This document shows, piece by piece, positions 2,890 to 26,265 of a DNA stretch of 27,666 nt. Where the stretch lies: the IMG/VR virus record IMGVR_UViG_3300027770_000210, positions 1 to 27,666 of that record. One strand, given 5' to 3'. The notes under the pieces were generated by a model, which had not been told where the DNA came from, ran no database searches, and saw only the letters and a list, made by a program, of their open reading frames with translations. Position 1 is the first letter of the stretch, and every line of letters starts with the position of its first letter. Origin of the DNA: a virus. A program made the position numbers and the translations under genes.

Positions 2890-2890
2890 G

Positions 2891-4138: not shown

Positions 4139-4141
4139 GAT

Positions 4142-5673: not shown

Positions 5674-5683
5674 ATTGCTTTCC

Positions 5684-8915: not shown

Positions 8916-8918
8916 GGT

Positions 8919-10199: not shown

Positions 10200-10202
10200 C
10201 TT

Positions 10203-10922: not shown

Positions 10923-10945
10923 ATTTAACTCCTTAAAATTTAATA

Positions 10946-12069: not shown

Positions 12070-12094
12070 ATATACCCTTTAATTACAAAAGTAT

Positions 12095-12122
12095 ATTATA
12101 CAGTACTTTCATCCCATGATAA
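12095..12122 (-). promoter_or_regulatory. Candidate sigma-70 promoter ahead of the oxygenase pair
   Basis: On the minus strand TTATCA (12122-12117) is followed after 16 nt by a perfect TATAAT (12100-12095), 26 nt before the oxygenase ATG. It overlaps the end of the upstream coding sequence. In AT-rich DNA a TATAAT arises easily, the -35 matches only 4 of 6, and there is no TGn, so this is a moderate call. Confidence 0.3.
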
Positions 12123-12464
12123 TGTAGATTCATTCCATATATATTCTTTATTATCTGTAGGGTAAGGTAAAGGCGATTCCCATAACCAAGTAGATGTATT
12201 TATTACCCAAGATTCAAAAGGTTTTGGCGGATAAAATACATCATTTTCTTTATCGTATATATAATCAATACCTGCGTAATTACCTCTTAAAGCAACACCA
12301 TTATCAGGAAGTCCGTCTTGTCCATAATGTATATTGCCACGAGTATTATATGATGTTTGTATCCATAATGATGGCTCACCTAAATGACCTTCATTAATAA
12401 AGTCTTGTTCAACAACAAGCACTTCTTTTACTATGCCATCAACAACTTTTGCAAAGTGACTCAT
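12096..12464 (-). CDS. Conserved phage virion-region protein, function unknown
   Basis: 122 residues. It begins MSHFAKVVDGIVKEVLVVEQDF and contains WIQTSYNTRGNIHYG, ALRGNYAGIDYIYD, VFYPPKPFESWVIN and paired Trp segments near the end. This string of motifs is one I recognise from a protein widespread in cyanophages and other aquatic phages, always small and usually next to tail-fibre genes, without an assigned function. It overlaps the poly-Gly protein gene by 4 nt. Composition (Trp/Tyr-rich, beta-prone, no membrane segment) fits a small structural or fibre-associated protein. Function is not known. Confidence 0.7.
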   Translation of the reverse strand: MSHFAKVVDGIVKEVLVVEQDFINEGHLGEPSLWIQTSYNTRGNIHYGQDGLPDNGVALRGNYAGIDYIYDKENDVFYPPKPFESWVINTSTWLWESPLPYPTDNKEYIWNESTLSWDESTV

Positions 12465-13495: not shown

Positions 13496-13496
13496 G

Positions 13497-14663
13497 TTAT
13501 TTAACCTTTAATTCATCTATTTCTTGTTTTAACTCTTTAATAGCTTCAATTAATACGCCTACAATGTTTCCGTAAGCTACAGATAAAGTTTTCATATCGT
13601 CGTTTGCTTCTACTACAACTTCAGGCAATACTTGTTGAACTTCTTGTGCTATAACACCAAGACTATTTATTCCGTCTCTATCAAATGTTACTCCACGTAA
13701 ATCCATAACTTTATTTAGTGCATTATCAATAGTTTTGATATTAGATTTAAGCCTTCTATCAGAAGTTGCAGTAAAATTAACACCAGTATATGAATTGCTT
13801 GTATTTAAAGCATTAGCTGTAGTTGCTGTAGTGGCATTAGTTGCATTAGTAACTGCTGTTGTGCTGATTGCTGCAACAATTTGAGCTGCTGTAGCTGTTG
13901 TTAAAGCACCTGTAGTTGTTGTGCTATATACTAAACCTGTAGTATTTGCTGATGTTCCTGCAGAATAGTCTGTACCTGATGTAGCTGCTGAAAATGCAGA
14001 TGTACCACTGCCTTTAATAATACCTGTTAATGTAGTTGCACCAGTACCACCGTTTGCTACTGGAAGTGTACCTGTAACTCCTGTAGATAAGGGAAGTCCA
14101 GTACAACTTGTTAAAGTTCCAGATGAAGGTGTACCTAAAATTGGTGTAGTTAAAGTAGGTGATGTTGCAAATACTAAATCACCAGAACCTGTTTCACCTG
14201 TTACTGCTGCTGCCAAGTTAGCACTTGTAGGTGTAGCAAGAAATGTAGCTACATTAGTACCTAAACCACTAACTCCTGTAGAAATTGGCAATCCTGTAGC
14301 ATTTGTAAGAGTTGCAGATGCTGGAGTTCCTAATGCAATAGCATTACCACTGGCGTCTGTGTATATACCTTTACCAGCAGGATATGTAACAAATACATTT
14401 TTTGTACCAGTACTGAAGTTTACTGCACTTCCACCATTGCTAGATGATAATATAGTATCACGAGATAAAGCAGTGCCTACAGCTGTATAAGTTCCAATAC
14501 CTACTTCCCATTCTGCACCACCTACAATAGCGTAGTAAGTAGTATTACCATTGCCGATAACAGAGAATGATTGGAAGCCAGTAACTGCACCTGCAAGCAC
14601 AAGTGCAATAGTGCCTACGGTTACAGTAGTTTCCTGTACTCTATCCTTGACTACTAGAGCCAT
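13497..14663 (-). CDS. Tail fibre with C-terminal intramolecular chaperone (Peptidase S74)
   Basis: 388 residues. The N-terminal part (residues 1-120) includes a phage fibre module ([20 protein letters not shown]-like strands, [20 protein letters not shown], then [14 protein letters not shown]). The shaft (about 115-295) has repeats of the [20 protein letters not shown] and [20 protein letters not shown] types. The last 88 residues are a Peptidase S74 chaperone: SDRRLKSNI starts at Ser301 with Lys306 as the catalytic partner, then [34 protein letters not shown] and a terminal coiled coil. S74 domains drive trimerisation and then cut themselves off before the Ser, so the mature fibre should end near residue 300. 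Confidence 0.88.
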
Positions 14664-14672
14664 GAGTTATCC

Positions 14673-15059
14673 TTACGCTAATGTAACTGAAAGATTGCCT
14701 GTTGAAATCTTAAAGATGTCACCAGAGTCAATTGTTTTAGACGTATCTAAAGGTGAATGGTATAAAAGATTACCTGAAGTAGCAGCATCATTAATACCAA
14801 TCCAACCTACTGTTCCCCATGAAGCTGTACAAGTTGGGAATGTTACGTCAGCAGAGTTAGTAGTTACACCGTTAGAAGGTGCTGCAAATGTGACAGCAGT
14901 TCTAGCGTAAGAACCACCAGATACTTCTGTGCCACTACCTGCGTCTGTAGGGTCTGAAGTCCATAGTGATACATATACTGTTGCTACGGATGTGTATGTT
15001 GTGTTTCTTAGAGTTGCATTAATAAGTGCGTTCTCTAAAAAGTTACTGATTTCTGCCAT
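14673..15059 (-). CDS. Conserved small beta-rich virion protein
   Basis: 128 residues. The opening NFLENALINATLRNTTYTSV and the run VYVSLWTSDPTDAGSGTEVS, SYARTAVTF, WGTVGWIGI, GNLLYHSPL, SGDIFKISTGNLSVTL form a pattern seen in many phages, often annotated as a tail or virion protein of the gp80-like kind. It lies between the adaptor and the S74 fibre, consistent with a tail role such as fibre attachment. No enzymatic motif. Function beyond 'virion component' is not supported. Confidence 0.65.
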   Translation of the reverse strand: MAEISNFLENALINATLRNTTYTSVATVYVSLWTSDPTDAGSGTEVSGGSYARTAVTFAAPSNGVTTNSADVTFPTCTASWGTVGWIGINDAATSGNLLYHSPLDTSKTIDSGDIFKISTGNLSVTLA

Positions 15060-15069
15060 AATATTTTCC

Positions 15070-15678
15070 TTATCGTGGTGTTACGTTTAATGTGGTGTAT
15101 GCGTATGTTTGACCTAAGTCACTTGTTTTGATATTAGCAATTGCTCTATCATATAATGATGACCATGTTGCTACTCTTGGGTCGTTCATTAAATAAGGTT
15201 CTGCTTCTGCTAATGTTGCGTAAAGCAAAGCATCTGGGTAGTATGCTAAATACAAGTTACTAGCTGTTGTGCTAGAAATAAATGTTGGTTGAGCATAGTA
15301 TAAAATTTGAATGGTGTAAGTTGCATCTTGGCTAGGTGCAAACTGGAACTCTGTGCCTAACATTGTAAAGAAATGGGAACGACCTGATAATGATGTTTGA
15401 CCATTACGGAAGAACAAGTCAGGTGATTGAAACTCTAAGATAATAGGTGGGTTACCCTGGAAGTGCATCTCTCTTAACTCTAGAAAGTCAGTAGGAAACG
15501 CTACTTTATTATCTGTAGCTGTAGTAGTTGCAACCTTTAACATAGCCTCTGTTCTTAAGTCACGACTCATTCTTAACTGTGCCATCTGAATAAAGTCAGG
15601 GATAACAGTTGTTAAGTCTGTTCTAGCTAGATAGCTTTCTACCGTTGATACAAAGGTAGTATAGTTTGTAAATGCCAT
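15070..15678 (-). CDS. Head-tail adaptor (SU10 adaptor-like / gp4-like)
   Basis: 202 residues. The N-terminal helices (TTFVSTVESYLARTDLTTVIPDFIQMAQLRMSRDL region, residues 6-45) with the 'I-x-x-F-I-x-x-A-x-x-R-x-x-R-x-L' pattern, the middle FLELREMHF and the C-terminal FAPSQDATYTIQILYYA followed by YPDALLYATLAEAEPYL are features of the podovirus head-tail adaptor family found after the capsid gene (SU10 adaptor type). It would form a dodecamer under the portal and link it to the nozzle. In this genome the gene is separated from the capsid gene by a glycosyltransferase and a methyltransferase. Confidence 0.75.
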   Translation of the reverse strand: MAFTNYTTFVSTVESYLARTDLTTVIPDFIQMAQLRMSRDLRTEAMLKVATTTATDNKVAFPTDFLELREMHFQGNPPIILEFQSPDLFFRNGQTSLSGRSHFFTMLGTEFQFAPSQDATYTIQILYYAQPTFISSTTASNLYLAYYPDALLYATLAEAEPYLMNDPRVATWSSLYDRAIANIKTSDLGQTYAYTTLNVTPR

Positions 15679-15687
15679 TCGTAATCC

Positions 15688-16200
15688 TTATTGTTTTTTA
15701 ACTAATACGATACAACCGTTATCTATCTTTACTTGTTTAACTATAGTAAAGCGAGTGCTGAGATGTTTATTCCACCACTCTAAAGGTTGTTGTATAAGAT
15801 GTGCGTTTCTACCGTCTGGTAATATTTTCATTGCTGGACCAGTATGTATTGTAAATAGTCCGTATTTATTTACTACTCTTTTTAAATCATCTAGCACGTT
15901 ATCTAGTAATTCAGGTTCTATATGTTCAAGAACGTCTATACATGTTACAAATTCGTTTGGTTCTGGTGTTTGACTCCATAATGGATTACTAGGTTCATAG
16001 GGAGTGTAGATTACTTCTGACTTCATGCTATCTTTTAGTCTACATTTACCTGCACCGTAGTCTAATAAACTTGTAATACCAAAACTCTGTATAACATCAT
16101 CAACGATTGGTGCAAAGAATGTACTTGCTATCCCATAGTCAGGGTTCTCATGCAGTTTTGTCTGCATGTCTCTATATTCGTTAGAGATTAAGTTGTTCAA
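15688..16200 (-). CDS. SAM-dependent methyltransferase (class I, small)
   Basis: 170 residues. SAM-binding motif I is SLLDYGAGKCRL at about residues 44-55; the acidic end of strand 2 is YEPSNP; motif IV/post-IV is FVTCIDVLEHIEPE at about residues 84-97 (the D-V-L-E-H-I signature of Methyltransf_11/23 proteins); then FTIHTGPA. It is shorter than most class I methyltransferases and lacks an extra substrate-recognition domain. It overlaps the C-terminal end of the TPR-glycosyltransferase gene by 20 nt, so the two are translated together and may act on the same glycan or protein. A substrate cannot be read from the sequence; sugar O-methylation is plausible. Confidence 0.75.
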   Translation of the reverse strand: MNNLISNEYRDMQTKLHENPDYGIASTFFAPIVDDVIQSFGITSLLDYGAGKCRLKDSMKSEVIYTPYEPSNPLWSQTPEPNEFVTCIDVLEHIEPELLDNVLDDLKRVVNKYGLFTIHTGPAMKILPDGRNAHLIQQPLEWWNKHLSTRFTIVKQVKIDNGCIVLVKKQ

Positions 16201-17503
16201 TGACTTCTTTCCATGTTCTATCGTCTTGATAAATTAGTCTCATGTGTCTATACCAAGGCATACTTGGCTGAGCATAACGCCATTGGTGATATTTAGGTAC
16301 TAAGCACCATGTTTTAACGCCCATAGCAGCACTACAATGTAAAGCTGTAGTATTGACCCCTAAAACCATATCACAAGCTCCTATAAGAGCTGCTGTATCA
16401 TCATAATCTTTTGCGTCTGACGCTAATTCAAAGTACTTAACACCTTCAATTTTGCTTTCTACGCTATAATCTAAACTAACTAACTGTATATCTTTGCGTT
16501 TTAGTAGTGGTTGTAAGTCTTCTTTTGTAAGAATACGACCTTTAGAGTTTGTTCTAAATGTACCACCTTTAGTAGTGATACCTATAACTATCTTACCCCA
16601 TGGTTTAAACATGGCTTTCCACATCTCAACCTTATCTGTATCAGGTACTAGAAAAGGAGTCCCAGGAAAAGACTTGCTCGTTGGTCTACAAAACTGAGGT
16701 AACCCACCAATAGCACATCTTGCATCAATTGTAACTCCATCTACCCACCTCGCATCTTCTTCTTTACGTGTGCCATATACTTCTGCTTTAGGAAAGCTAC
16801 GTTGAAATAGCGTTTCTAATCGTTTATCGCACTCTATATATACTTTGTTACTAATAGTTATAGCATCAGGAATACATGACGCATAAAATATCTCATCACC
16901 TAAACCTTGTTCACCATAGATAACTAAATTCTTACCTGATGAACCATTCCATTTAAATTCGTCTTTATAGACTATCTCTTTACGAAACTTTCCACCTAGT
17001 GACTTGTCCCATTCTATCCAACCTTTTTCCCATTCACCTTTAGCTAGGTAACTATGTGCTAGGTTTAATTGTGCGTGTAGTTCGTTAGGATTGCATTCTA
17101 GAGCCATCTTTGCTGACTTCTCTGCATCTTCCCATTTAGACATCTGAACAAGTGAAGCAGAAGCGTTAGCATAAGCTAGTGCATAGTTAGGGTCTAACTC
17201 TGCTGACTTTAAGAAGTATTTAATAGCTTCATCAAACATATCCATTTCATGACATGCACGACCTAGAGATGTCCATAATGCTTTATTGTTTGGTGATTCT
17301 TGTAGTGACCTACGGAATAACTGGTATGCAAATGCAGGCTTTTCACCCATCAACCAGATGTATCCTAGAAAATGTAATGTAGCTGCATCATTAGGATAGA
17401 CCATTAATACTTCGTTAATAATAGGTAAAGCTACCTCATAATCTTCTTTTTGTATAAGGTCATGTATTGCTAACTGTACGTTCTTTAATTCGTCTTTATC
17501 CAC
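16181..17503 (-). CDS. TPR-domain glycosyltransferase (GT-B, GT9/OGT-like)
   Basis: 440 residues in two parts. Residues about 5-170 are tetratricopeptide repeats (ALPIINEVLMVYPNDAATLH, RRSLQESPNNKALWTSLGRA, EAIKYFLKSAELDPNYALAY, AEKSAKMALECNPNELHAQL). Residues 190-440 are a GT-B-like domain: VIYGEQGLGDEI at 194-205 (the glycine loop typical of heptosyltransferase/GT9-like proteins), VIGITTKGGTFRTNS, and a C-terminal nucleotide-sugar region (DDTAALIGACDMVLGVNTTALHCSAAMG). The TPR part usually binds a protein substrate, as in O-GlcNAc transferase. The gene lies directly behind the capsid gene pair and overlaps both neighbours, suggesting virion glycosylation, but there is no direct evidence for the target. 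Confidence 0.8.
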   Translation of the reverse strand: MDKDELKNVQLAIHDLIQKEDYEVALPIINEVLMVYPNDAATLHFLGYIWLMGEKPAFAYQLFRRSLQESPNNKALWTSLGRACHEMDMFDEAIKYFLKSAELDPNYALAYANASASLVQMSKWEDAEKSAKMALECNPNELHAQLNLAHSYLAKGEWEKGWIEWDKSLGGKFRKEIVYKDEFKWNGSSGKNLVIYGEQGLGDEIFYASCIPDAITISNKVYIECDKRLETLFQRSFPKAEVYGTRKEEDARWVDGVTIDARCAIGGLPQFCRPTSKSFPGTPFLVPDTDKVEMWKAMFKPWGKIVIGITTKGGTFRTNSKGRILTKEDLQPLLKRKDIQLVSLDYSVESKIEGVKYFELASDAKDYDDTAALIGACDMVLGVNTTALHCSAAMGVKTWCLVPKYHQWRYAQPSMPWYRHMRLIYQDDRTWKEVIEQLNL

Positions 17504-17819
17504 GTTTAGTAGTTAGTTTCAAGTATGGATAGTTTTCGTTTATTTCTTTTATAAGTTCTTTTGTTTGGTTAGGGTTATACATGTCTATACCCTTTTGCTT
17601 TAACTGCATTTCCACTACAGGTGGAATACTAGCAAAGTGCGCCCATTCTTGCTTAACACCTTCATTCCAAACTTCAGGGTTATCTCTAGACTTTTTAATA
17701 TTGTCTAACATGCCACTAATGTCTTGTGTGCTAGTTAGGTAGTATGTATCTTTAGCTGGGTCATAGTCAAAGTACTGACTTACACCTGTTACGCTATTGT
17801 GGTCAAATAATATTGGCAT
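17496..17819 (-). CDS. Small conserved protein following the capsid gene
   Basis: The frame can start at a TTG at 17831, but the ATG at 17819 (MPILFDHNSVTG) is preferred. The TTG alternative lies only 2 nt from the hairpin base. The product is 107 residues: a beta-prone start (YFDYDPAKDTYYLTSTQDIS), then helices (MLDNIKKSRDNPEVW, EWAHFASIPPVVEMQLKQKG) and a C-terminal YNPNQTKELIKEINENYPYL. Proteins with the 'FDYDPxxDTYxLxSTQDI' and 'ASIPxxVxxxLKxKGI' pattern occur right after the major capsid gene in many aquatic phages; function unknown. A head-completion role would fit the position. Confidence 0.65.
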   Translation of the reverse strand: MPILFDHNSVTGVSQYFDYDPAKDTYYLTSTQDISGMLDNIKKSRDNPEVWNEGVKQEWAHFASIPPVVEMQLKQKGIDMYNPNQTKELIKEINENYPYLKLTTKRG

Positions 17820-17833
17820 AATTAAATACAACA

Positions 17834-17853
17834 GAGGGAGAATTAACTCCCTC
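17834..17853 (-). terminator. Hairpin after the capsid gene (terminator or attenuator)
   Basis: Minus-strand GAGGGAG-TTAATT-CTCCCTC is a perfect 7-bp stem with a 6-nt loop, 20 nt after the capsid stop codon. The trailing sequence (TGTTGTATTTAATT) is T-rich but interrupted, so termination is probably partial, or the hairpin protects the 3' end of the capsid mRNA. Confidence 0.5.
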
Positions 17854-17854
17854 C

Positions 17855-17865
17855 ATTATATCACA
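17855..17865 (-). promoter_or_regulatory. Consensus extended -10 (TGTGATATAAT) just before the hairpin
   Basis: The minus strand reads TGTGATATAAT, a perfect TRTGn plus TATAAT extended -10, in the short gap after the capsid gene. No TTGACA-like -35 is present at 16-18 nt. The predicted start point would fall inside the downstream hairpin, so this is either a promoter whose RNA begins in the hairpin or a chance match. Confidence 0.3.
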
Positions 17866-17873
17866 TCTAATTA

Positions 17874-18827
17874 CTAAGCACCTGTATTTTGCACTTTTGC
17901 ATGTGCGTCAGGGTTCTGTACTACTAAAGCATATTCTGCTGTTAATAGATACTTAGTTGAGTCACCAGTTTTAGCAAGTTCTTCTTTGCTTAAAGGTCTG
18001 AGTGAAGCTAAACCAACATAACCTGGGTCAATACAAAGAACTGCTGCATCACGCATGAAACGGTCAAGTTTCACAGTGTGGTTACCGAAGTCAGAAACGT
18101 AAACGTCTGCTGCACCAGTAATAGTAGCTTGTGTTGTACCTTGAACATTGTTGTACTTAGTAGCAATACCAGCAAAGCCAGAGAAACGTGCTTTGTTAGT
18201 TGCTGACATAAGAATAACTGATGGTTCGCCACCATCTAACCATGCTAATTGTAAAGCTGACTTTAAGTCTGCTTCAATAAATGTAACTGCTGTACCATCT
18301 GTAGGTGCTGCAACTGTTCCACCTGAAAAACCAGGAGTAGAACCTGCTGTAGAACCTGTAGCTAATACTCGGTTAGTAATCCAAGACTCAATACCTGCTG
18401 ATGTACGAGCTGTTGCTGCGCCACCTGCTGATGATGCTTGGTTACGTACGATAGCATACTCCATGTCACGTTTCATTTCTTTACCAGCTTTCATAAGTTG
18501 GTAAGCAACTTCAGACTTACGACCATACTTACGTACTACGTCATATGTGTTTGAAATTTGAACTGTTTTGCGTGAGATTTGAGTATAGTTACCTAATACT
18601 GTTGTTGCTGCTAATGTTGCGTATGAAGCGTCATCACCTTCGACTGCTGCGTTAGTAGTTGCTGCTGCTAAAGCGTCTGTTTGCCATTGATGGTAAGTTT
18701 GACCTGCTGACATACGTTTTGCCATTGATAACAATGGTGTGTCTTCTGGTGAGATGTCAAAAATCACATCTTCAAAAGACTCTGCTATACCTTTACCGGT
18801 ATAACTATTGGTTGCTGATACTGCCAT
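17874..18827 (-). CDS. Major capsid protein (SU10 / DUF5309-type, HK97 fold)
   Basis: 317 residues. The N-terminus (NSYTGKGIAESFEDVIFDISPEDTPLL region), the MSAGQTYHQWQTDAL segment, QISRKTVQISNTYDVVRKYG, MKRDMEYAIVRNQ, and the C-terminal VYVSDFGNHTVKLDRFM followed by LCIDPGYVGLASLRPL and the closing strand before QNPDAHAKV are features of the DUF5309/SU10 major capsid family. Strong AAAGGAAA Shine-Dalgarno (minus strand, about 8 nt before the ATG), fitting the most highly expressed late gene. It follows the scaffold gene. SU10 and phiEco32 relatives have elongated (C3) heads, so this virion may as well. Confidence 0.88.
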   Translation of the reverse strand: MAVSATNSYTGKGIAESFEDVIFDISPEDTPLLSMAKRMSAGQTYHQWQTDALAAATTNAAVEGDDASYATLAATTVLGNYTQISRKTVQISNTYDVVRKYGRKSEVAYQLMKAGKEMKRDMEYAIVRNQASSAGGAATARTSAGIESWITNRVLATGSTAGSTPGFSGGTVAAPTDGTAVTFIEADLKSALQLAWLDGGEPSVILMSATNKARFSGFAGIATKYNNVQGTTQATITGAADVYVSDFGNHTVKLDRFMRDAAVLCIDPGYVGLASLRPLSKEELAKTGDSTKYLLTAEYALVVQNPDAHAKVQNTGA

Positions 18828-18847
18828 GATTATGGTTTCCTTTTAAA

Positions 18848-19831
18848 TTAAAGCATATTTTCTATAAGTTTTGTAGCTGCATCTGACTTACCTGTCTTAC
18901 GTAATTGCTCACGTAGGTTACGGTGGTTAGAGTTAGCTTCCGCTTTGGTATCTTTAGACCCAGGTTTCACCACTGGTTTAGCGTTTGATACCTTTTTCTT
19001 CACAACTGAATTTTGTTGTAGTTTGCGCCATTGCATAGCGTCATGCAGAACCTTTACGTGACGAGGGTCAACAATTGCGTTGAGTTCGACATCAGAAAAT
19101 CCATAGTCCTTGCCAGTAGATAACAATGCTTGGTTAGTCTCAGGACTCCAATTTGGTATCTCTTTTGCTAGGATTTCTTTTCCCTTTGCTATCTTCTCAG
19201 CCATCAATTGCGTTTGCTTTTGAACGACTTGTTGCTTTTTGACTTCAAACTGTGAAACGAGTTGGCTACGTTCTTGCTGTAGTTGGTTGTATGTAAAGAA
19301 AAGTTTTTGCGCTTCCACAAAGTCATTATCAGACAATTGATTCCAATTCACGTTAGCATATTGGTTCAGTTGTTGGTCTAATGATGTGATTTTTGCTACA
19401 TCTTCAATTAACACATTGTTAAGTTGCATCTGTTCTTGAAAGGCTTGCTCTTGAGCTTTTATACTCTCAGCATACGCTTCTAGCTCTTTACGTTGTTCTG
19501 CTACTTGTTGTGTCTTTTGCGTGTAGTCTAAGCCTTGTTGTGCTAATGCTACGACTTCGTCTAGTGGCTTCTCAACATCTTCACCATTAACCTTTAACTT
19601 AAGGAGAGCAGGAACTTCATCTTCCGACTGTTCTTCTTCCTCAGCTTGGTCATCTGGGTCTTCTGTTGCTTCTTCTGATTCTACTTCTTCAGTATCCTCA
19701 GCCTCAGCTTCTAGTGGTGCTTGTTCTTCTTCGTCTTGAAGTTCAGGTGGTTTAACATCTGACTCAACACTATCACCTAACATAGCCTCTAATCGGCTTT
19801 GTGGTGACTGTTCTGCGACTTGGTCACTCAT
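18848..19831 (-). CDS. Capsid scaffolding protein
   Basis: 327 residues, strongly biased. Residues 1-75 are acidic (DEEEQAPLEAEAEDTEEVES, AEEEEQSEDE), residues 100-225 are a long Gln/Lys/Glu-rich helix with coiled-coil character, and the C-terminal 60 residues are basic (VVKKKVSNAKPVVKPGSKDT, NLREQLRKTGKS), the end that would contact the capsid protein. Location directly before the major capsid gene, length and helical composition match phage scaffolding proteins, which drive prohead assembly and then leave. Good AAGGA Shine-Dalgarno. No serine-protease motif is seen, so it is a scaffold rather than a prohead protease. Confidence 0.8.
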   Translation of the reverse strand: MSDQVAEQSPQSRLEAMLGDSVESDVKPPELQDEEEQAPLEAEAEDTEEVESEEATEDPDDQAEEEEQSEDEVPALLKLKVNGEDVEKPLDEVVALAQQGLDYTQKTQQVAEQRKELEAYAESIKAQEQAFQEQMQLNNVLIEDVAKITSLDQQLNQYANVNWNQLSDNDFVEAQKLFFTYNQLQQERSQLVSQFEVKKQQVVQKQTQLMAEKIAKGKEILAKEIPNWSPETNQALLSTGKDYGFSDVELNAIVDPRHVKVLHDAMQWRKLQQNSVVKKKVSNAKPVVKPGSKDTKAEANSNHRNLREQLRKTGKSDAATKLIENML

Positions 19832-19853
19832 AGTTTTGTTTCCTTGAAATTAG

Positions 19854-19883
19854 ACAATAAAAAAGCCTACCGAAGTAGACTTT
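19854..19883 (-). terminator. Intrinsic terminator with UUCG tetraloop before the scaffold gene
   Basis: Minus-strand AAAGTCTAC-TTCG-GTAGGCTTTTTTATT: a 9-bp stem (one G-U) closed by C(UUCG)G, the most stable tetraloop, followed by a T6 run. It lies between the small gene ending at 19898 and the scaffold start at 19831. It is directional: the plus-strand reading lacks a T-run. Confidence 0.8.
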
Positions 19884-19897
19884 AAGTGGGTTTGTCC

Positions 19898-20167
19898 TTA
19901 CCCAAATACTTTAAATCTTGGCTTATCCGTTTGGATAGATGCTAACTTACCTGTTTGCATAACGTCAGTAAGTTGCTTGTTTATTTGGTTTAATAGTTGT
20001 AATGCTATTACTAATCTGTTGTGGGTCTTCTCATCACCAATAGGACTATTAGTCATACTGTTGACAATGTTATCTCTAACACGTTCTATAGCATCCTTAT
20101 ATACAGGATTATCTAATATTTGTGCTGCTTGTTCACCTAACTTAATCTCTTCTAATGGTTTAGTCAA
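19898..20167 (-). CDS. Small conserved head-region protein (TTG start)
   Basis: 89 residues, entirely helical: EQAAQILDNPVYKDAIERVR, NIVNSMTNSPIGDEKTHNRL, VIALQLLNQINKQLTDVMQT, ending FKVFG. The motif NSPIGDEKTHNRLVIALQLLN and the 'KFG/KVFG' end recur in a small protein found between portal and capsid genes in many aquatic phages; its function is unknown. No ATG fits; a TTG at 20167 is preceded by AAAGGA about 9 nt upstream and comes right after the stop of the previous gene, so TTG is likely the true start. The gene ends 15 nt before the UUCG terminator hairpin. Confidence 0.7.
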   Translation of the reverse strand: MTKPLEEIKLGEQAAQILDNPVYKDAIERVRDNIVNSMTNSPIGDEKTHNRLVIALQLLNQINKQLTDVMQTGKLASIQTDKPRFKVFG

Positions 20168-20368
20168 TTAAATGTATCCTTTAGCCTTATTAATCAATCT
20201 GCCTTTTACAGTTAATCCGCTAACAGGAGCAGAATATGCAGTCTTATAGTCTATCATATTTGCTTCTATTGCACCTGCTCCAGCTAAACGTGATACTGAA
20301 CCTGCTGGTGCTGTACTTGCTTTACCTACAATAACTGCGCCTGCTTCTGCTAGTCTTTCATTAGCCAT
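20168..20368 (-). CDS. Small conserved protein between portal and head genes
   Basis: 66 residues: MANERLAEAGAVIVGK, then STAPAGSVSRLAGAGAIEAN, MIDYKTAYSAPVSG and a basic end. The start ATG overlaps the last codons of the portal gene (GGAG Shine-Dalgarno 6 nt upstream), and the next gene starts directly after its stop. No known domain. Its small size and place, always in this spot in related genomes as far as I recall, suggest a head or portal accessory; function not known. Confidence 0.6.
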   Translation of the reverse strand: MANERLAEAGAVIVGKASTAPAGSVSRLAGAGAIEANMIDYKTAYSAPVSGLTVKGRLINKAKGYI

Positions 20369-22367
20369 ACATTACTCCTGATTGTGCTTTAATTTGTGCA
20401 ATTGCTAAGTCTGTTTCTGCTTTAAGTTGAGCCTTAAATCTTTCTAACTCAGCTTGTGCTGCTATCTTCTCACGTTCAATAATAACATCATTCTGTGAGC
20501 GTACTTGTTCTTGTTGTAACTGTGCTTGTGCTTTCTCACGTTCAATCTGTAACTGACCTTGCACCATAATCTCTGCTTCTGAAGGCTTGTCTTGTTTCTG
20601 ACCTTCTTGCTCAGGAGTATTAGCTGGGTTAGTCCAGAACTCTTCAGGGTTCTTAAAGCCTGCGTTCTGTGTAAGTTTAGCTAGTGCGTTGTAAATCTTA
20701 TCTGGGTTAGTTAAACCTATTTGGATAGCTTCTTTTTGCATATTCAAGATAGATGTTAAGTGAACCAATTGTTGGTCTTTATTACCTGCGCCTAAGCCTA
20801 CAGAGATAGATAAGTCATTACGGTCTTCCCATTCTCTAGGGTCTACTTCTACCCACTTGTTACGCATACGAACAATGTCAGGTTTAGTAAGTGTAGTTCT
20901 AACTAATCTGTGAACAAGTTTAAATAGTTCTTTTACACCTGTCTCTGCGAATGTTCTAGCTACTAACTCAATACGTTGTTGAGACGCATTCATAATCTGT
21001 GCTACACCGGTAGCTGTCTTGTTTAAACTGTTAGCATCTAATCCTTGATTGTAAGCTGTAACACCTGTTCTCTTTTCTTTCATAGAGTCCATGTATTCAA
21101 CCATACCGAATGATGATGCTGGTAGTGGTGGATGTGATAAAGGCATAATGCCTGAACCTGGGTCACCTTCTACACGAACAATACCACCTGGGCGTGAAGT
21201 AAGCATATCGTCTAGGTTTACTCTGTCTGAAATAGCATAACGACCATTGTTAGCTAGATACATGTTATCTAACTGACCACGAATAAGTGTTGACTTAATT
21301 AACTGAATGTCCATAGTCAAGTCAGCATAAGAACGACCAATATGTCTATGTGGCATTATCATAGGAGTGATACATGCAAAAGGAACAACCTCAGTCTTCT
21401 CTTTGTAAAGAACTGTGTTTCCTAGGATAACAACTCTATAGCGTTCACCATCTATTTTAATATAGGTATCTTTAACTAATGCTTCACCTGACTCAATAGC
21501 TCTATCGTATTCTTCATCATAAATATCACGTGCATTAGACTCTTCTTCAAACGTATCACGAAGGTCTGACATAATAGACTTGATGTATTCTAATGGCTTG
21601 TCAAATGCTTCTGCAATGTCAGCTAACTGCATGACTTCTCTATGCTGAACAAAACGTGCATCTTTTAGATTAGGACCAGTAACTTCTACAGATACCATAA
21701 TGCTTTCAGGTGCTACGTTCTCAATCTTAATCTCTGTCTTCTTCTCTGTAACCTTTAACTTAACATCATGTAGCATAGGTTGAACAATAGTAGATGGGTC
21801 TACACCATTCATTGCTGCTTGTTGATAGATAACATCCATGTTGACACTTGGGTCAGCATAAGCAGTATGTTCTAATACTTCTGTATTCTCATCTGAAGCC
21901 AACATCTGTAGTTGTGCGTCAGTTAAACCTTTGTAATCGTATTCTTCTACTTCTTCTTCATCTTCTGAATAAACTTTTACATAGCCATTCTTAGAGAGTA
22001 GTGCATCTTTAAACCATACGTAGAATGTCTTGAACCCTTCGTTCTTTTCCATTACTACATGGTTAATGTAATCTGTTTCTTGTTCTGCTGCGTCTTGGTC
22101 TTCAGGACCTTTAGGGTCAAACTGAATCACCTTGTCACCAGCTACGAATACTTTTAAGAGTTGTGGTAATGCAGCTTCAATCGTATCTTGTACGTCATAG
22201 CTAATTACTTGTGAACGACCTTCTTCTTCGTTGCCAAAAGGTTGACCTAGGTAATAGTCAATTGCATCTGCTCTATCATTAGATAGTGAAGAGTCATTGA
22301 CACCATAAGCCATACTTTCTTCAAGTTCTACCTGAGCTATGATTTCCATGTCTTGTAACTTTGCCAT
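20361..22367 (-). CDS. Portal protein (SU10-like podovirus portal)
   Basis: 668 residues. Features of the P22/SU10-like portal family: an N-terminal clip/stem region with NDRADAIDYYLGQPFGNEEE, GRSQVISYDVQDTIEAALPQ and the KLYAGDK-like LKVFVAGDKVIQFDP; middle PFACITPMIMPHRHIGRSYA and SRPGGIVRVEGDPGSG; LNKTATGVAQIMNASQQRIE (the conserved portal helix with the TATGV motif); and a C-terminal coiled coil rich in Gln/Glu/Lys (residues 590-660) suited to a crown or barrel. It forms the dodecameric DNA channel and docks terminase. It follows TerL without a gap, its ATG sharing a base with the TerL stop. Confidence 0.88.
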   Translation of the reverse strand: MAKLQDMEIIAQVELEESMAYGVNDSSLSNDRADAIDYYLGQPFGNEEEGRSQVISYDVQDTIEAALPQLLKVFVAGDKVIQFDPKGPEDQDAAEQETDYINHVVMEKNEGFKTFYVWFKDALLSKNGYVKVYSEDEEEVEEYDYKGLTDAQLQMLASDENTEVLEHTAYADPSVNMDVIYQQAAMNGVDPSTIVQPMLHDVKLKVTEKKTEIKIENVAPESIMVSVEVTGPNLKDARFVQHREVMQLADIAEAFDKPLEYIKSIMSDLRDTFEEESNARDIYDEEYDRAIESGEALVKDTYIKIDGERYRVVILGNTVLYKEKTEVVPFACITPMIMPHRHIGRSYADLTMDIQLIKSTLIRGQLDNMYLANNGRYAISDRVNLDDMLTSRPGGIVRVEGDPGSGIMPLSHPPLPASSFGMVEYMDSMKEKRTGVTAYNQGLDANSLNKTATGVAQIMNASQQRIELVARTFAETGVKELFKLVHRLVRTTLTKPDIVRMRNKWVEVDPREWEDRNDLSISVGLGAGNKDQQLVHLTSILNMQKEAIQIGLTNPDKIYNALAKLTQNAGFKNPEEFWTNPANTPEQEGQKQDKPSEAEIMVQGQLQIEREKAQAQLQQEQVRSQNDVIIEREKIAAQAELERFKAQLKAETDLAIAQIKAQSGVMYG

Positions 22368-23641
22368 TAAACAATCCCTCTAGTATTATATTGTATCTTC
22401 TCTTTAGACCATGACTCGTTCTTCATAGCTTCTATAGAGGTACATAAGTATCTGAATGCGTCTGCTCCATGTGAAAACTCATCATGCAATGGCGCACCAG
22501 GTTCGTTGGTTGCAGAGTTTATACTTCTGCGATAATTCTTTAAACATTCAACAAGTCTTTGTGCTGACTTATCAAAGTATATACGGTGGAAGTTCATACG
22601 TGCTAACTTAATACCAGACTCTATATCTGCTTTAGGCACGATACGTATATCCCATCCTAACTTCTTCATAATCTCTTCTGCTGATATACCATGCTTAAAG
22701 TCTTTAGACTGTCCGTCATGTGGTAAGAACATTGTACCCCAGTTATAGGATAAGTTCTTTAGTTGTGCAGAGTAGCTATCTAATGTTCTGTGGTCATCTT
22801 CTATATAACCAATGACTCTTAAGTCTGATATACCCTTTTGACACAGGATAACTGACATACTGTCGTTCCATCCTAAGTCCATTACTACATGAACTTTCAT
22901 CATAGGGTCATAAGGCACAGTTGTTATACGGTTACCTTCTTGTGCTTCACGTATCTCGTTAGAGTATATAGCACCATCTACAGCAGCCTTACAATCACCT
23001 TCCCAGATGTTGTCATAGTCAGGGTTGGTCTTCTCGCTATGTTGACGTTCTATCTCTAGTACTTCAGGAAACCAAGGATTGTCAGTCCAATTAACCTTAA
23101 CAACCTTAGCGTTCTCTGGTGGATTAACCACGAATCTATTGTATGTATCGTCTGTATCTATATTAGGGTTGAATGATACCCATATCTCTGAATTAGGTTT
23201 ACGTATTGTAGGTATTAATATGTCCCATGATTTCTTACTAACTGTCTGAGCTTCTTCTACCCAAACAATATCACAACCTTCAAAAGACTTAATAGACTCA
23301 ACAGTATTAGTAGCAAGACCAGTAAAACTAAAACTTGAACCACTACGACTACGAATTTCTGACTCCAAGACCTCGTACAATGGACCAAGCCCAAGTGCCT
23401 GTATTTGGTCGTTAAGTAAAGTGTGAACAGATTGTTTAATAGACCTTTGAATTTCTCTAGCACACAGTATCCTTAATGGCTTATTGCTTGCCTGTAATAG
23501 TAATGCCCTAGCCATAGACCATGACTTGCCACTTCCACGACCACCATAAGCTACTTTGTATCTATGTGGGTCAAATAAGAATTGTAGCTTCTTAGGAAAG
23601 TCAGCTAAGGGTTCAGTCTGGCTTGGTATCGGGTTCAACAA
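22367..23641 (-). CDS. terL: Terminase large subunit
   Basis: 424 residues, both domains visible. ATPase: Walker A GGRGSGKS at residues 33-40, the Walker B strand CDIVWVEEA with catalytic Glu at about 123-131, and coupling motif SFNP near 155. Nuclease: VVMDLGWND (Asp254), MFLPHDGQS (Asp308) and HDEFSHGADAFRY (Asp386/Asp394), the RNase H-like metal site. It packages DNA into the prohead and cuts concatemers. The sequence is closest to the Terminase_3/PBSX-type family. It overlaps the small-subunit gene by 29 nt. All key residues are present. Confidence 0.95.
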   Translation of the reverse strand: MLNPIPSQTEPLADFPKKLQFLFDPHRYKVAYGGRGSGKSWSMARALLLQASNKPLRILCAREIQRSIKQSVHTLLNDQIQALGLGPLYEVLESEIRSRSGSSFSFTGLATNTVESIKSFEGCDIVWVEEAQTVSKKSWDILIPTIRKPNSEIWVSFNPNIDTDDTYNRFVVNPPENAKVVKVNWTDNPWFPEVLEIERQHSEKTNPDYDNIWEGDCKAAVDGAIYSNEIREAQEGNRITTVPYDPMMKVHVVMDLGWNDSMSVILCQKGISDLRVIGYIEDDHRTLDSYSAQLKNLSYNWGTMFLPHDGQSKDFKHGISAEEIMKKLGWDIRIVPKADIESGIKLARMNFHRIYFDKSAQRLVECLKNYRRSINSATNEPGAPLHDEFSHGADAFRYLCTSIEAMKNESWSKEKIQYNTRGIV

Positions 23642-23936
23642 ACCTTAATCCTATGCTTAAAGGTAAATCTGAGCCATCTAATCCAGTCAACTCTGTAGTT
23701 GCTACTGCTTTACCATCTAATCTATCGCCTAGTTCTTTTATAGCTGATACATCACCTGAGGCTGCTTTGTCTAATAAAGCCTCTGCAATCATACGTAAGC
23801 GTTCTGCATCTGATTGTATAACAGCACGTCTAAGTGTTTCCGCCCATAACCTATTGTTTTTACTAGAATGTGTATTGCCTCGGTTCACTTCTGAGCTACG
23901 TTCTGCTGCTAGTCTTTTTCGTTCTTCGTTATCCAT
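23613..23936 (-). CDS. terS: Terminase small subunit candidate
   Basis: 107 residues. GNTHSSKNNRLWAETLRRAV is the typical opening of a terminase-small-like/DUF5681 group; RLRMIAEALLDKAASGDVSA, IKELGDRLDGKAVAT and the C-terminal tail after LSIGLRFVEP follow. It sits just upstream of TerL and overlaps it by 29 nt. A good AAGGGAG Shine-Dalgarno precedes the ATG. It would recognise packaging DNA. Identification rests on motif memory plus location. Confidence 0.75.
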   Translation of the reverse strand: MDNEERKRLAAERSSEVNRGNTHSSKNNRLWAETLRRAVIQSDAERLRMIAEALLDKAASGDVSAIKELGDRLDGKAVATTELTGLDGSDLPLSIGLRFVEPDTKPD

Positions 23937-23970
23937 TGTTTTGCAACTCCCTTAGGTTGGTTGCCCTCTG

Positions 23971-24669
23971 TTATAGTTCTGAGTCTTTGTTGTTACCCTT
24001 AAGTGGGTATATCATTCTTTGGTATGTGTCCCACCATTCTTGACTATAGTCTGTATTCTGATAGTCTTTAAAACATGGTGTGCCTAATGTGTGGTGTATC
24101 AATTTAGCATCTGGGTTGTATTCGTATTCTGTCTCTAGCCAGTTCCATGTATCGTCTAGCTTGCCTACTTGGTCTTCATGTTTTAACCATTCAAACCTGT
24201 GTAGGTATTTACCTGACTTATCCATAACAAACTGTGGTGTCAGTTGTTTGTTTAAATGATGCCCGCAATTCCATAACATAACGCTTGACCAGTTCTTTTT
24301 AGGATAGTCTTCGTTCTTTGCACCCAAGTATTTAACAGGATGCTTTGTTTGGTAATAATGCTTTACGACTTTTAGAGCTTCGTCTTGGTCATGTTCCCAT
24401 AGTATTTCTGCTATATCTGTTCGGCATATCATATCGCCATCTACAAATAGTGCCATGCCTTTAAAGTCACATAGATATGGAACTAAAAAGCGTGAATAGA
24501 TAAATGCGTTACTACCGTCTGTGTGTGTTTCTTTGTATTCTGATAATGTGTTTAGTGCTAATGGTGTAAAACTAACAGGTATTGATGACTTCTCAATGAC
24601 TGACTGACAGAACGTGTGATACGCTACCGGCTCTACCTTACCATCAAATCCTACAAATATTTTAAGCAT
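23971..24669 (-). CDS. Glycosyltransferase, GT8-like (GT-A fold)
   Basis: 232 residues. IFVGFDGKVEPVAYHTF is a family-8 type nucleotide-sugar strand start; AFIYSRFLVPYLCDFKGMAL leads to LFVDGDM with the DxD metal motif Asp77-Gly-Asp79; LWNCGHH and LIHHTLGTPCF (with the second His) are further conserved pieces of the fold. It would transfer a hexose from a UDP/GDP-sugar in a metal-dependent reaction. In this genome it sits between the small-protein cluster and the terminase genes. Possible targets are host lipopolysaccharide, phage DNA base modification or virion glycan; the sequence does not decide. Active-site residues are complete. Confidence 0.8.
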   Translation of the reverse strand: MLKIFVGFDGKVEPVAYHTFCQSVIEKSSIPVSFTPLALNTLSEYKETHTDGSNAFIYSRFLVPYLCDFKGMALFVDGDMICRTDIAEILWEHDQDEALKVVKHYYQTKHPVKYLGAKNEDYPKKNWSSVMLWNCGHHLNKQLTPQFVMDKSGKYLHRFEWLKHEDQVGKLDDTWNWLETEYEYNPDAKLIHHTLGTPCFKDYQNTDYSQEWWDTYQRMIYPLKGNNKDSEL

Positions 24670-24680
24670 TGCTTATTATA

Positions 24681-24932
24681 CTACCACTTTACTTTGTTTG
24701 CCCAGTAAGCGGCACTCATTTTACCTTTTGCTATATTATCTGCATGTCTTGCTTTAAAAGACTTTGCTCTATCTGTATTTTTTTTATCACCACTTACACC
24801 TTGTTGACCAAAGCGTATTAGTTTCTCTGTGTCACCGTCTTTAGCCAATACTGCATGTGACTTAGTAGGATGACTTGGTGTTCTCTTAGGTTTGTTATAC
24901 CCTGAGAATGTTTCTTTACCCTTCTTAATCAT
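24681..24932 (-). CDS. Small basic conserved phage protein
   Basis: 83 residues, rich in Lys. The second half, ATEKLIRFGQQGVSGD-like followed by SFKARHADNIAKGKMSAAYW and ANKVKW, is a motif string common in marine and freshwater phages (RFGQxGV ... FKARHxxNIAKGKMSAAYWANxxKW), function unknown. Basic charge and small size fit a DNA-associated or virion packaging protein, but nothing proves it. The start ATG overlaps the upstream stop by 3 nt. Confidence 0.7.
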   Translation of the reverse strand: MIKKGKETFSGYNKPKRTPSHPTKSHAVLAKDGDTEKLIRFGQQGVSGDKKNTDRAKSFKARHADNIAKGKMSAAYWANKVKW

Positions 24933-25078
24933 TTCTTTTTCTTAGCTGTCTTTGCTGATTGTTTAAATGCCATAGCAGTAGGTGCACCTTTACTTCCTAC
25001 CTTACGCATCTTCTCACCAGAGCCTGCTTTAATTCTTGCTTTTTTTGCTGCAATGTTTGCGTATAAACCTGGTTTCAT
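24929..25078 (-). CDS. Very small basic conserved phage protein (49 aa)
   Basis: An ORF of 49 residues: MKPGLYANIAAKKARIKAGS, then GEKMRKVGSKGAPTAMAFKQ and SAKTAKKKK. The MKPGLYANIxAKxxRIxAGSGEKMRKxGxKGAPTA string is a motif I recognise from small proteins of many aquatic phages. It begins one base after the Cys-rich protein's stop and overlaps the next gene by 4 nt, so the gap 24933-25079 is coding, not empty. Highly basic and disordered-looking, like a DNA or RNA binding peptide. Function unknown. Confidence 0.75.
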   Translation of the reverse strand: MKPGLYANIAAKKARIKAGSGEKMRKVGSKGAPTAMAFKQSAKTAKKKK

Positions 25079-25079
25079 G

Positions 25080-25523
25080 TTATTTCTTTCCGTAAAGATG
25101 TTTAGACATAATAAGAGTTTGTTTTTCTTTAGTAGTCATAGGCTTTGTTACTGGACCACCTATTAACCATGCAGAGCAAGTTCTGTCTGCAGCACACTTG
25201 AACTCAAACAGTTCACAATAACCTAGACTAGCACCATCTACTACTTCGTTAGCGTATGTTTCGTTATCTGACTCTTCGCCTTGTATGCCATTAACTATGC
25301 AGTCCATCATTTCAGGAGTTTGGATAAATGCAGAGCAATTACCACAACGCATAGTCTTGGCAGTTTCTACTGGAGTTTGCCATTCATCTGCCCTGGCATT
25401 CCAAAATTCTTTGTTTGGTTCATCTGGATTAGCTGGACCATAACCTACATTCTTAAACGCCCAGTCTCTATTCTTAAGATTAAGTTTTATGTCGTGCGTT
25501 ACGACTGGACATTCTTTAGCCAT
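25080..25523 (-). CDS. Cys-rich protein, HiPIP-like cysteine spacing
   Basis: 147 residues. The N-terminal part (VTHDIKLNLKNRDWAFKNVG) is followed by a cysteine cluster: Cys60-x2-Cys63, Cys75, Cys103 (GYCELFEFKC), Cys110 and Cys116 (RTCSAWLIGGP). The arrangement C-x2-C ... YCxLFxFKC ... C-x-A-W recalls high-potential iron-sulfur proteins and could bind a 4Fe-4S cluster or zinc. The C-terminus is basic. Similar proteins occur in environmental phage genomes without assigned function. The ATG overlaps the upstream stop by 1 nt. Confidence 0.7.
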   Translation of the reverse strand: MAKECPVVTHDIKLNLKNRDWAFKNVGYGPANPDEPNKEFWNARADEWQTPVETAKTMRCGNCSAFIQTPEMMDCIVNGIQGEESDNETYANEVVDGASLGYCELFEFKCAADRTCSAWLIGGPVTKPMTTKEKQTLIMSKHLYGKK

Positions 25524-25696
25524 TATTTTTTCTTCTTAGCCATGCCTGCAGATGAAAGGGCTATCGCAATCGCTTGTTTTGGGTTCTTAACAATAGGACC
25601 TTTTTTAGAACCAGTATTTAATGTACCAGCTTTATATTCCTTCATTACTTTGCCCACTTTTGCCATCTTGCCTTTTTTCGTTGTTGGTTTCTTCAT
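25523..25696 (-). CDS. DUF6496-type small basic protein (57 aa)
   Basis: A 57-residue ORF: MKKPTTKKGKMAKVGKVMKE, then YKAGTLNTGSKKGPIVKNPK and QAIAIALSSAGMAKKKK. The VGKVMxEYKxGTLxxGSKKGPxVKxxKQAIAIALSSA string is the DUF6496 motif found in many bacteria and phages, function unknown. The ATG at 25696 lies inside the upstream zinc-ribbon gene (65-nt overlap in another frame); a later ATG at 25666 (MAKVGKV) would shorten the overlap to about 35 nt and still keep the motif. Confidence 0.75.
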   Translation of the reverse strand: MKKPTTKKGKMAKVGKVMKEYKAGTLNTGSKKGPIVKNPKQAIAIALSSAGMAKKKK

Positions 25697-25811
25697 AGCT
25701 TTTCCTTAATTTAATAAATTTGTGTTCATATCTACAGTCGTTGCATAGCGGATACTCGGTAGAGTCAAAAGGGTCACCGCATAAATTACATATAGTTACT
25801 GAGAATGTCAT
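25632..25811 (-). CDS. Small zinc-ribbon protein, first gene after the late terminator
   Basis: A 59-residue product when started at the ATG at 25811 (MTFSVTICNLCGDPF). An upstream ATG at 25829 would add MGFFFY, codons that are simply the poly-T tract of the terminator, so I reject that start. Two CxxC knuckles (CNLCG and CNDCRYE) suggest one structural zinc. The rest is charged (KLRKSYEETNNEKRQDG). It is the first gene downstream of the promoter-leader-terminator unit. No clear Shine-Dalgarno is visible. DNA- or RNA-binding is plausible but unproven. Confidence 0.6.
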   Translation of the reverse strand: MTFSVTICNLCGDPFDSTEYPLCNDCRYEHKFIKLRKSYEETNNEKRQDGKSGQSNEGI

Positions 25812-25813
25812 AT

Positions 25814-25856
25814 AAAAGAAAAAGCCCAACCACGGAGAGAGTGCAGTCAGGCTTTT
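25814..25856 (-). terminator. Strong intrinsic terminator in the late leader
   Basis: On the minus strand a 14-bp stem pairs 25856-25843 with 25820-25833 (10 Watson-Crick and 4 G-U pairs, starting AAAAGCC/GGCTTTT) with a 9-nt loop, followed by TTTTTCTTTT. It lies about 40 nt after the predicted start of the promoter at 25901-25930, so most transcripts would end after about 80 nt unless antiterminated. Confidence 0.75.
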
Positions 25857-25865
25857 GTGGGATTA

Positions 25866-25920
25866 CGTTATTAACGGACAGGAGTTGTCCAACAAGTAGT
25901 ATTATAGCATACTTTGCTAT
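25866..25920. promoter_or_regulatory. Dyads in and below the late promoter (candidate Q-binding/pause elements)
   Basis: Three inverted repeats lie here: ATAGCA-TACTT-TGCTAT (25904-25920), centred in the spacer between -10 and -35; GGACA-GGAGT-TGTCC (25876-25890) just after the start point; and CGTTA-T-TAACG (25866-25876) downstream. Lambdoid Q proteins bind a site between -10 and -35, so the first is the best candidate for that role; the others could form RNA hairpins or an operator. Confidence 0.45.
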
Positions 25921-25930
25921 TTCTGTTCAA
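25901..25930 (-). promoter_or_regulatory. Late promoter: TTGAAC-18-TATAAT with extended -10
   Basis: On the minus strand TTGAAC (25930-25925), 18 nt spacer, TATAAT (25906-25901) preceded by TGC, an extended -10. It begins 5 nt after the stop codon of the Q-like gene and points into the late genes. Predicted start point near 25894. The -35 matches 4 of 6; the perfect -10 and TGn compensate. Confidence 0.7.
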
Positions 25931-25935
25931 CAACA

Positions 25936-26265
25936 TTATGCGTTTATTCGTCTTCCTGCCATAGTAAGCAAATTATCGTAAGCCATCTCTAAATGCCAAT
26001 GATGGGCTATTTTTGGTTTAGCATCTAAGTATCTAGTATAGATAGCGTCTTGTTGATGCTTATCCAAACTGTGGATAATAGCGTCTATGGTGCGAAGATT
26101 AGACATGTCCTGGGCAGAACACATCTCCGAAAACGACTCACTGGTACTTTCTCCACCGGATGACATACCTATGCTTTTAGATGGATAACCTAACCTATGA
26201 TTATCTGACTGCATCCATAAAGCCCAATCATCTAGGATGGACAATAAGCGTTGCATACTAATCAT
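25936..26265 (-). CDS. Q-like late antiterminator candidate
   Basis: 109 residues. The N-terminal LSILDDWALWMQSDNHRLGY with paired Trp (W-x-x-W) followed by SKSIGMSSGG resembles the start of phage antitermination Q proteins of the PF06530 group (LERWGAWA ... GF). The second half, DAIIHSLDKHQQDAIYTRYL and then MAYDNLLTMAGRRINA, is the sigma-region-4-like/HTH half seen in these proteins. The gene is directly followed by a promoter and terminator arranged as a Q target. It overlaps the winged-helix gene by 8 nt. Alone the sequence would give a modest call; the promoter-terminator context raises it. Confidence 0.6.
   Translation of the reverse strand: MISMQRLLSILDDWALWMQSDNHRLGYPSKSIGMSSGGESTSESFSEMCSAQDMSNLRTIDAIIHSLDKHQQDAIYTRYLDAKPKIAHHWHLEMAYDNLLTMAGRRINA

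Follow-up and report, generated by a model that had tools for sequence, protein, structure and literature searches.

What does a short Q-like gene do when a promoter and a transcription terminator follow it immediately on the same strand of a phage genome? In phage lambda this layout is the textbook Q/pR'/tR' logic, in which Q acts at pR' and lets RNA polymerase read through tR' into the late genes, and the initial annotation of the DNA studied here proposed the same function for it. We analysed the whole stretch of 27,666 nt (IMG/VR record IMGVR_UViG_3300027770_000210, positions 1 to 27,666; hereafter the window) together with relatives of the gene in other viral records.

Gene, promoter and terminator in the window

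The unit lies on the minus strand. In the direction of transcription, its parts and the region that it may control are as follows.

25936..26265, minus: Q-like antiterminator gene, 109 aa, with a weak PF06530 match and a 21Q structural match
25925..25930, minus: -35 element TTGAAC (alternative reading TGAACA, one base downstream)
25901..25909, minus: extended -10 element TGCTATAAT, by sequence match
25894, minus: predicted transcription start (+1), placed 7 nt after the -10 by sigma-70 spacing
25876..25890, minus: small leader hairpin GGACA-ACTCC-TGTCC, inside the conserved initially transcribed region
25862..25870, minus: conserved TAACGTAAT at +25 to +33, in which TAACGT is a candidate -10-like element for a putative pause
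25814..25856, minus: intrinsic terminator, the tR' analogue, with a 14-bp stem, 9-nt loop and U-tract
25632..25811, minus: first ORF past the terminator, zinc-ribbon-like, 59 aa, ATG at 25811
158..25696, minus: putative late operon of terminase, portal, scaffold, capsid and other virion genes

The TAA stop codon of the Q-like gene occupies 25938-25936 and the -35 element begins 5 nt further on. The promoter reads TTGAAC-18-TATAAT, with an 18-nt spacer; the TGAACA reading, with a 17-nt spacer, has an equal -35 score. The terminator hairpin (5' arm 25856-25843, 3' arm 25833-25820) begins at +39 and has TCTTTT behind it. The RNA fold of 25800-25895 has z = -3.6, and 0 of 200 shuffles are as stable. 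The hairpin, with its 9-nt loop, is missing from a standard terminator scan with a loop limit of 8, and no Rfam family reaches its gathering score in the window. The arrangement first described, a Q-like gene with a promoter 5 nt after its stop and a 14-bp terminator with U-tract at about +39, is confirmed.

Promoter-like matches are common by chance in AT-rich DNA, and the window is AT-rich. Promoters alone stand at chance level here (16 against 12.7 ± 4.1 expected), which favours reading the promoter match as chance and the conservation described below as recent common ancestry or recombination only. A promoter–terminator pair of such strength, taking the window promoter's own score as the threshold and a distance of at most 110 nt, occurs once in the window and not at all in 100 first-order Markov sequences (both strands). 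With looser thresholds it is still the sole pair within 110 nt on either strand of the window.

Downstream of the unit, the minus strand carries those structural genes that could be assigned (terminase, portal, scaffold, major head protein, and virion or tail proteins). Ten downstream proteins were scanned, of which three have no family at E ≤ 0.001 and one matches only a family of unknown function. The earlier claim of a leftward late operon holds in that head and tail genes lie downstream on the same strand; that they form one operon we infer. The zinc-ribbon-like ORF has its start codon 2 nt past the U-tract and a DZR_2 match (E 0.005) below the cut-off, and a DUF6496 protein is encoded at 25523-25696 (minus; 32.9 bits, over the cut-off of 24). 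Calling the head SU10-type was loose: the SU10 match covers 39% of the length of the major capsid protein, whose best relatives among those listed (25 of 299 records, spread) are a Manatee Spring phage and Pseudomonas phages.

Resemblance of the Q-like protein to 21Q

The window protein has a single Pfam match listed at E ≤ 10, to the antiterminator family named in the initial annotation, PF06530 (Phage_antitermQ; E 6.6e-4), but its 20 bits fall short of the curated cut-off of 26. PF06530 is also the most frequent match at E ≤ 0.1 among 27 family members (17/27, with Sigma70_r4_2 in 9/27); ten of the 27 do not match it at that level. In a search of 12 viral records, seven match PF06530 at E ≤ 0.001 and none exceeds the cut-off; five clade-B records in this search have no PF06530 match. 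Neither the window protein (E ≤ 10) nor the 27 members have a Pfam match to another Q family. PHROG matches are all weak: the window protein matches an antitermination family at E 0.038, and 8/27 members match antitermination family 79, as many as match, with better E-values, the best PHROG match, phrog_27007, a family of unknown function.

What ties PF06530 to the Q protein of phage 21 (21Q) is QuuD, from the DLP12 prophage of E. coli K-12, which scores high against this family (179 bits) and also has 21Q as a sequence match in the PDB (E 7.6e-7). A profile of the Q-like family finds no 21Q chain in the PDB at E ≤ 10, and hhalign of the family against QuuD gives a probability of 2%, which is not significant. 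At 26258-27390 (minus), before the Q-like gene, lie a gene for a YbcO-like HNH nuclease and small genes, an arrangement that recalls the DLP12 order ybcO-rusA-quuD.

An AF2 model built from 52 sequences has a mean pLDDT of 79 and a pTM of 0.71, with pLDDT under 50 in the loop at residues 26-43. Foldseek searches with this model returned only E-values above 1. When the top 100 Foldseek chains were realigned, the four best were all 21Q (Z 5.9-6.7, 85-95 residues aligned), although by the tool's own caveat a Z under 8 can reflect a common arrangement. The best is 6p18 (Z 6.7, 95 residues), and sigma region 4 comes after the 21Q entries. The proposed comparison with Q structures thus points to 21Q at modest scores, and we find the resemblance persuasive because it agrees with the Pfam result.

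Two features of the 52-sequence alignment bear on function. W17 is conserved in at least 90% of sequences and aligns with W26 of 21Q, in agreement with the structural range (3..109 to 12..151); the 21Q report (PMC6606751) describes W26 as contacting the RNA polymerase dock, and part of 21Q as resembling the sigma region 4 fold. The motif GGEST (residues 37-41) is invariant and falls within residues 26-43, the low-confidence stretch of the model and the place of the ring in 21Q. By analogy, the GGEST loop may have a role in antitermination.

The unit in clades A and B

Relatives of the gene fall into three clades. From IMG/VR we confirmed 267 relatives, of which 80 were kept and form clade A (78-100% identical), and 135 of the MW202481 type, of which 80 were kept for clade B. 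A query with the gene of phage Venkman gave 41 loci. We used 29 parsed loci and Venkman itself, 25 of clade C (24 parsed loci plus Venkman) and five of clade A (L194, L195, L197, L198 and L201); L183, L187, L190, L200 and L202 were left out as partial matches, and L050, L052, L191-L193, L196 and L199 as clade A. Identity to the window protein across the 52-sequence alignment is 55-58% for clade B and 45-52% for clade C. A search of one genome per species across 84,980 species, which detects close relatives only, gave 12 pattern matches, none of them confirmed.

Every one of the 80 clade-A loci kept has the unit after the gene, directly in 75 and behind an inserted methylase-like gene in five, and so do 81/81 clade-B loci, one of them cut by a contig end. 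The sequence T[A/G]nTATAAT is found from 20 nt before to about 40 nt after the last codon in 75/80 clade-A and 76/81 clade-B loci, and a module profile built from these direct loci recovers the unit in all the remaining ones, including four clade-B loci with a slightly different -10 context. TGnTATAAT is present in 85/86 clade-A and 77/81 clade-B modules, the other five having TATAAT with GT at that place. All 47 distinct clade-B modules have a TTGACA -35, and in 81/81 clade-B loci the TGA stop codon of the Q-like gene forms part of it.

The idea that the promoter match is chance draws on the closeness of clade-A leaders to one another as well as on the promoter counts in the window. It sits badly with clade B, where TTGACA is invariant while the adjoining spacer varies (0.48 mean pairwise identity), and with the distance between the clades, whose proteins share the identity given above and whose terminases are only 31-34% identical over the matched C-terminal part. 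We consider it extremely improbable.

It is common for a terminator to stand behind the last early gene, and the position of the hairpin behind the Q-like gene would fit one that merely ends an early operon, next to a constitutive promoter for late genes or a small RNA and with no regulated read-through. Because the hairpin sits downstream of the promoter, transcripts from that promoter run into it, which counts against this reading. So does the inserted-gene group, in which the module is intact 598-739 nt downstream in five of the 80 clade-A loci and likewise in their near relative L201. Together with the constant stem position described below, these points make the operon-end reading very unlikely.

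The inserts themselves, between Q and module in L030, L049, L055, L074, L079 and L201, are of three methylase-type gene kinds in one slot, a tentative assignment based on SPPY or DPPY motifs. Two of the kinds end in the residues RINA, as does clade-A Q, and this shared ending suggests recombination at the 3' end of Q.

Gene and unit also keep company from the side of the unit. A pattern scan for the clade-B unit found 64 stretches. In 60 of them a frame with GGEST lies no more than 600 nt upstream, four are too short and none lacks the frame; the scan could miss variants because its pattern was derived from gene-bearing loci. Of 25 records given, from all three clades, 19 have a terminase, and the Q-like gene and terminase are co-directional in 17/17 of those in clades A and B. 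The unit adjoins the Q-like gene where both genes run the same way, and none lies beside the gene where terminase is on the other strand.

Two further observations concern the region past the unit. In MW202481 (L082:8539-11241) the Q unit is separated from a plus-strand terminase by a group of genes on the minus strand, so that a late transcript would have to run through about 2.7 kb of genes in antisense. In many clade-B loci the first ATG past the unit opens a frame beginning MKKPTT, like the DUF6496 protein of the window.

Clades A and B have terminator hairpins with no sequence relationship. If +1 is taken to be 7 nt after the -10, and with a terminator score threshold of 13 that we chose, the stem starts at +38 to +41 in 46/46 clade-A and 41/46 clade-B distinct leaders that pass the score, and at +54/55 in the other five of clade B. 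This spacing of about +39, kept though the hairpins changed, is the further point against a simple operon end. Eleven further distinct leaders are below the score, among them nine clade-B near misses (12.4-12.6 against 13), L070, and L114, which has no hairpin of the terminator kind; nine more are cut by contig ends. With a loop limit of 10 instead, 15 distinct leaders are missed, 14 of them in clade A. Mononucleotide shuffles reach the score in 2/1010 cases. The whole-leader fold beats shuffles in the window and in L082 (0/200 each), and does not in L093 (43/200) and L088 (17/200), both of clade B.

The leader, between promoter and terminator, varies less than the -35/-10 spacer. In aligned modules of clade A (28 distinct) the mean pairwise identity is 0.72 for the leader and 0.52 for the spacer, and in those of clade B (42 distinct) it is 0.83 and 0.48; ungapped counts, which mixed 17- and 18-nt spacers, gave no clear contrast in clade A, whereas the aligned comparison shows it in both clades. 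This suggests that signals for Q loading may lie downstream of the start, and we hypothesize that the Q-binding element is in the leader.

A -10-like hexamer with invariant A2 and T6 occurs in clade B only at +18 to +23 (47/47 distinct), with TATCGT there in the divergent L082 group, and clade A has a constant [T/A]AA[C/T]GT at +25/26 to +30/31 (23/23 distinct leaders aligned). We rejected a pause element at a position common to both clades. The predicted pause would come later, around +33 to +40, just before the terminator stem.

The small leader hairpin is paired in 86% of cells in clade A and 97% in clade B. Folded one by one, most clade-A leaders do better than nearly all of their 200 shuffles (exceptions: L002, L016, L034, L036 and L070), and most clade-B leaders do not. 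The hairpin was rejected as a covarying RNA element: in clade A no measure is clearly above shuffles (94 to 477 of 500 reach it). In the clade-A leaders L042, L050, L051, L064 and L201 the stem is probably kept in a shifted register that the column test cannot credit. We keep the hairpin as a lead only.

The conserved leader, with this hairpin near the 5' end in most clade-A members, raises the prospect that promoter and attenuator are real and serve late control but that read-through is set otherwise, for example by Nus factors, by ribosome coupling or by a leader RNA of the put type known from HK022, with the neighbouring protein acting elsewhere. The clade-C gene, which is not beside the late promoter (see below), would fit. 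The protein's matches to Q families, the clade-B unit never being found without the gene in 60 readable stretches, and a leader-hairpin covariation score that 228/500 shuffles reach in clade A and 24/500 in clade B, with no Rfam family, weigh against it, and we judge such an agent unlikely.

Two observations on leader sequence stand apart. A CTCTC(TC)C..G-like string recurs in the clade-A terminator loop (window 25820-25856), the L093 clade-B leader and a clade-C hairpin (L083, about 200-180, minus), for which a boxA-like role was considered as a mere possibility. In L070 (4393-5030) a gene at 4497-4970, HNH-like by eye and with a short repeated flank, lies inside the leader, after TTAATAACGTA and before the resumed TAATAACGTAATCCCAC-terminator; it is possibly a homing insertion at a conserved AACGTA site.

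Clade C and the proposed switch

In clade C the Q-like gene is opposite to the terminase in both records with a terminase and in Venkman. No unit of the A/B type was found by profile in the fetched stretches of 25 clade-C loci, nor in Venkman with a 10-position motif at up to one mismatch, and the one promoter–terminator pair within 110 nt in Venkman is a weak candidate inside an annotated gene. Once the distance limit between promoter and terminator was dropped, a 29-bp clade-C promoter, TTGTGGATAACTTAAAATGATGATATAAT, with an extended -10, was found on the late strand (L083 374-346, minus), identical in Venkman and G003. The search set comprised 21 of the 24 IMG/VR clade-C loci (not L173, L179 and L185) plus L262 and L263. 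Two of the 21 gene records have a terminase: G003 has the promoter about 2.3 kb before it, and G004 ends 1,985 nt before it, too soon to tell. In Venkman, placing the promoter before terminase requires joining the two termini of the linear record as deposited. L262 and L263, two short contigs with a clade-C terminase downstream on the same strand, were found by the promoter pattern, and so show only that clade-C terminase, not Q, follows the promoter.

A conserved leader with terminator-like hairpins at about +140 to +190 follows the clade-C promoter; the fold of this stretch beats shuffles in Venkman (0/200) and not in G003 (25/200). The clade-C gene is far from the late promoter and on the opposite strand, so any action of Q at that promoter would have to be in trans. 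The available part of the Venkman report (PMC8163748) does not contain the word terminator and has promoter once, in another context.

Taken together, we interpret the unit as a Q-type late-gene switch of the phage 21 kind (Q/pR'/tR'), with a probability of about 0.8. The lambda-style reading first proposed is supported in silico by the weak PF06530 match, the 21Q structural match at modest Z, conservation and gene orientation. Its parts, their order, their conservation and the structural resemblance are observed directly; transcription, pause, Q binding, read-through and the role of the loop would run as follows. Host RNA polymerase would start at the extended -10 promoter and, without Q, halt at the terminator with about 80 nt transcribed. 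The Q-like protein would engage polymerase near the promoter, most likely while sigma holds the -10-like leader sequence. On the analogy of 21Q, the flexible GGEST loop would then enter the RNA exit channel and block the terminator hairpin, and polymerase would read into the terminase, head and tail genes.

The likeness to phage 21, at modest structural scores, includes a sigma-region-4-like C-terminal part, an N-terminal W-x-x-W helix and a flexible middle loop, as well as a late promoter followed by an intrinsic terminator. By contrast, the window protein has 109 aa against 162 in 21Q, no TGAGCA direct repeats were seen in the unit, and the candidate -10-like element comes later than the phage 21 bubble (+3 to +15). 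For phage 21, the 21Q report places Q-binding repeats at about -21 and -13 and a -10-like sequence early in the transcript (PMC6606751). In 21, lambda and AlpA the binding elements lie in the -35/-10 spacer, which is here less conserved than the leader. Gene order and logic also resemble lambda Q/pR'/tR' and phage 82 Q. In lambda, tR' is much further from the promoter, at about 194 nt.

Two further systems are close in layout. In the short-tailed temperate Pseudomonas phage YA3, as in our phage, a Q gene (orf61) is followed by a promoter (PP4) and a terminator (tRf10), and a late switch was speculated (PMC7326022); its terminator is 224 nt downstream of the promoter, and the likeness noted here is one of layout. 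AlpA of Pseudomonas aeruginosa, a Q-like antiterminator, likewise has a terminator past its promoter (PMC7969949, PMC9371919); it differs in having its binding element in the -35/-10 spacer and in controlling host lysis genes. It also illustrates that a protein can be a Q-like antiterminator without resembling known Q proteins in sequence (PMC9371919). Both MW202481 and Venkman already carry relatives of the Q-like gene with an antitermination annotation (in Venkman, 'antitermination-like'). With these annotations and YA3 on record, the initial remark that such a unit had not been seen described was too strong, although we found no description of the late unit of this Q family in the open-licence PMC literature, searched by title and start of abstract. 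The switch belongs to a known kind, with comparative features of interest, and this reading is very likely right.

A more tentative possibility is that these proteins form a separate Q branch, with loading signals in the leader rather than the spacer, a terminator stem at about +39 regardless of its sequence, and a Venkman Q that works in trans. The signals would be TTGG...A.TC..G.CC and the -10-like hexamer between +18 and +31, and the Venkman Q would be uncoupled, acting on a late promoter of the other strand. Were this so, the RNA, with a small hairpin, would already be outside the polymerase when Q loads, a situation hard to reconcile with the threaded-nozzle model of 21Q.

If the switch is as we propose, lambda-logic antitermination would control late expression in a sizeable group of uncultured phages. 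Some 160 natural variants of the unit, a good many almost identical, would form a comparative data set for the leader positions that Q needs, and the Venkman branch offers a cultured phage with Q and its presumed target physically apart, in which the need for proximity is testable.
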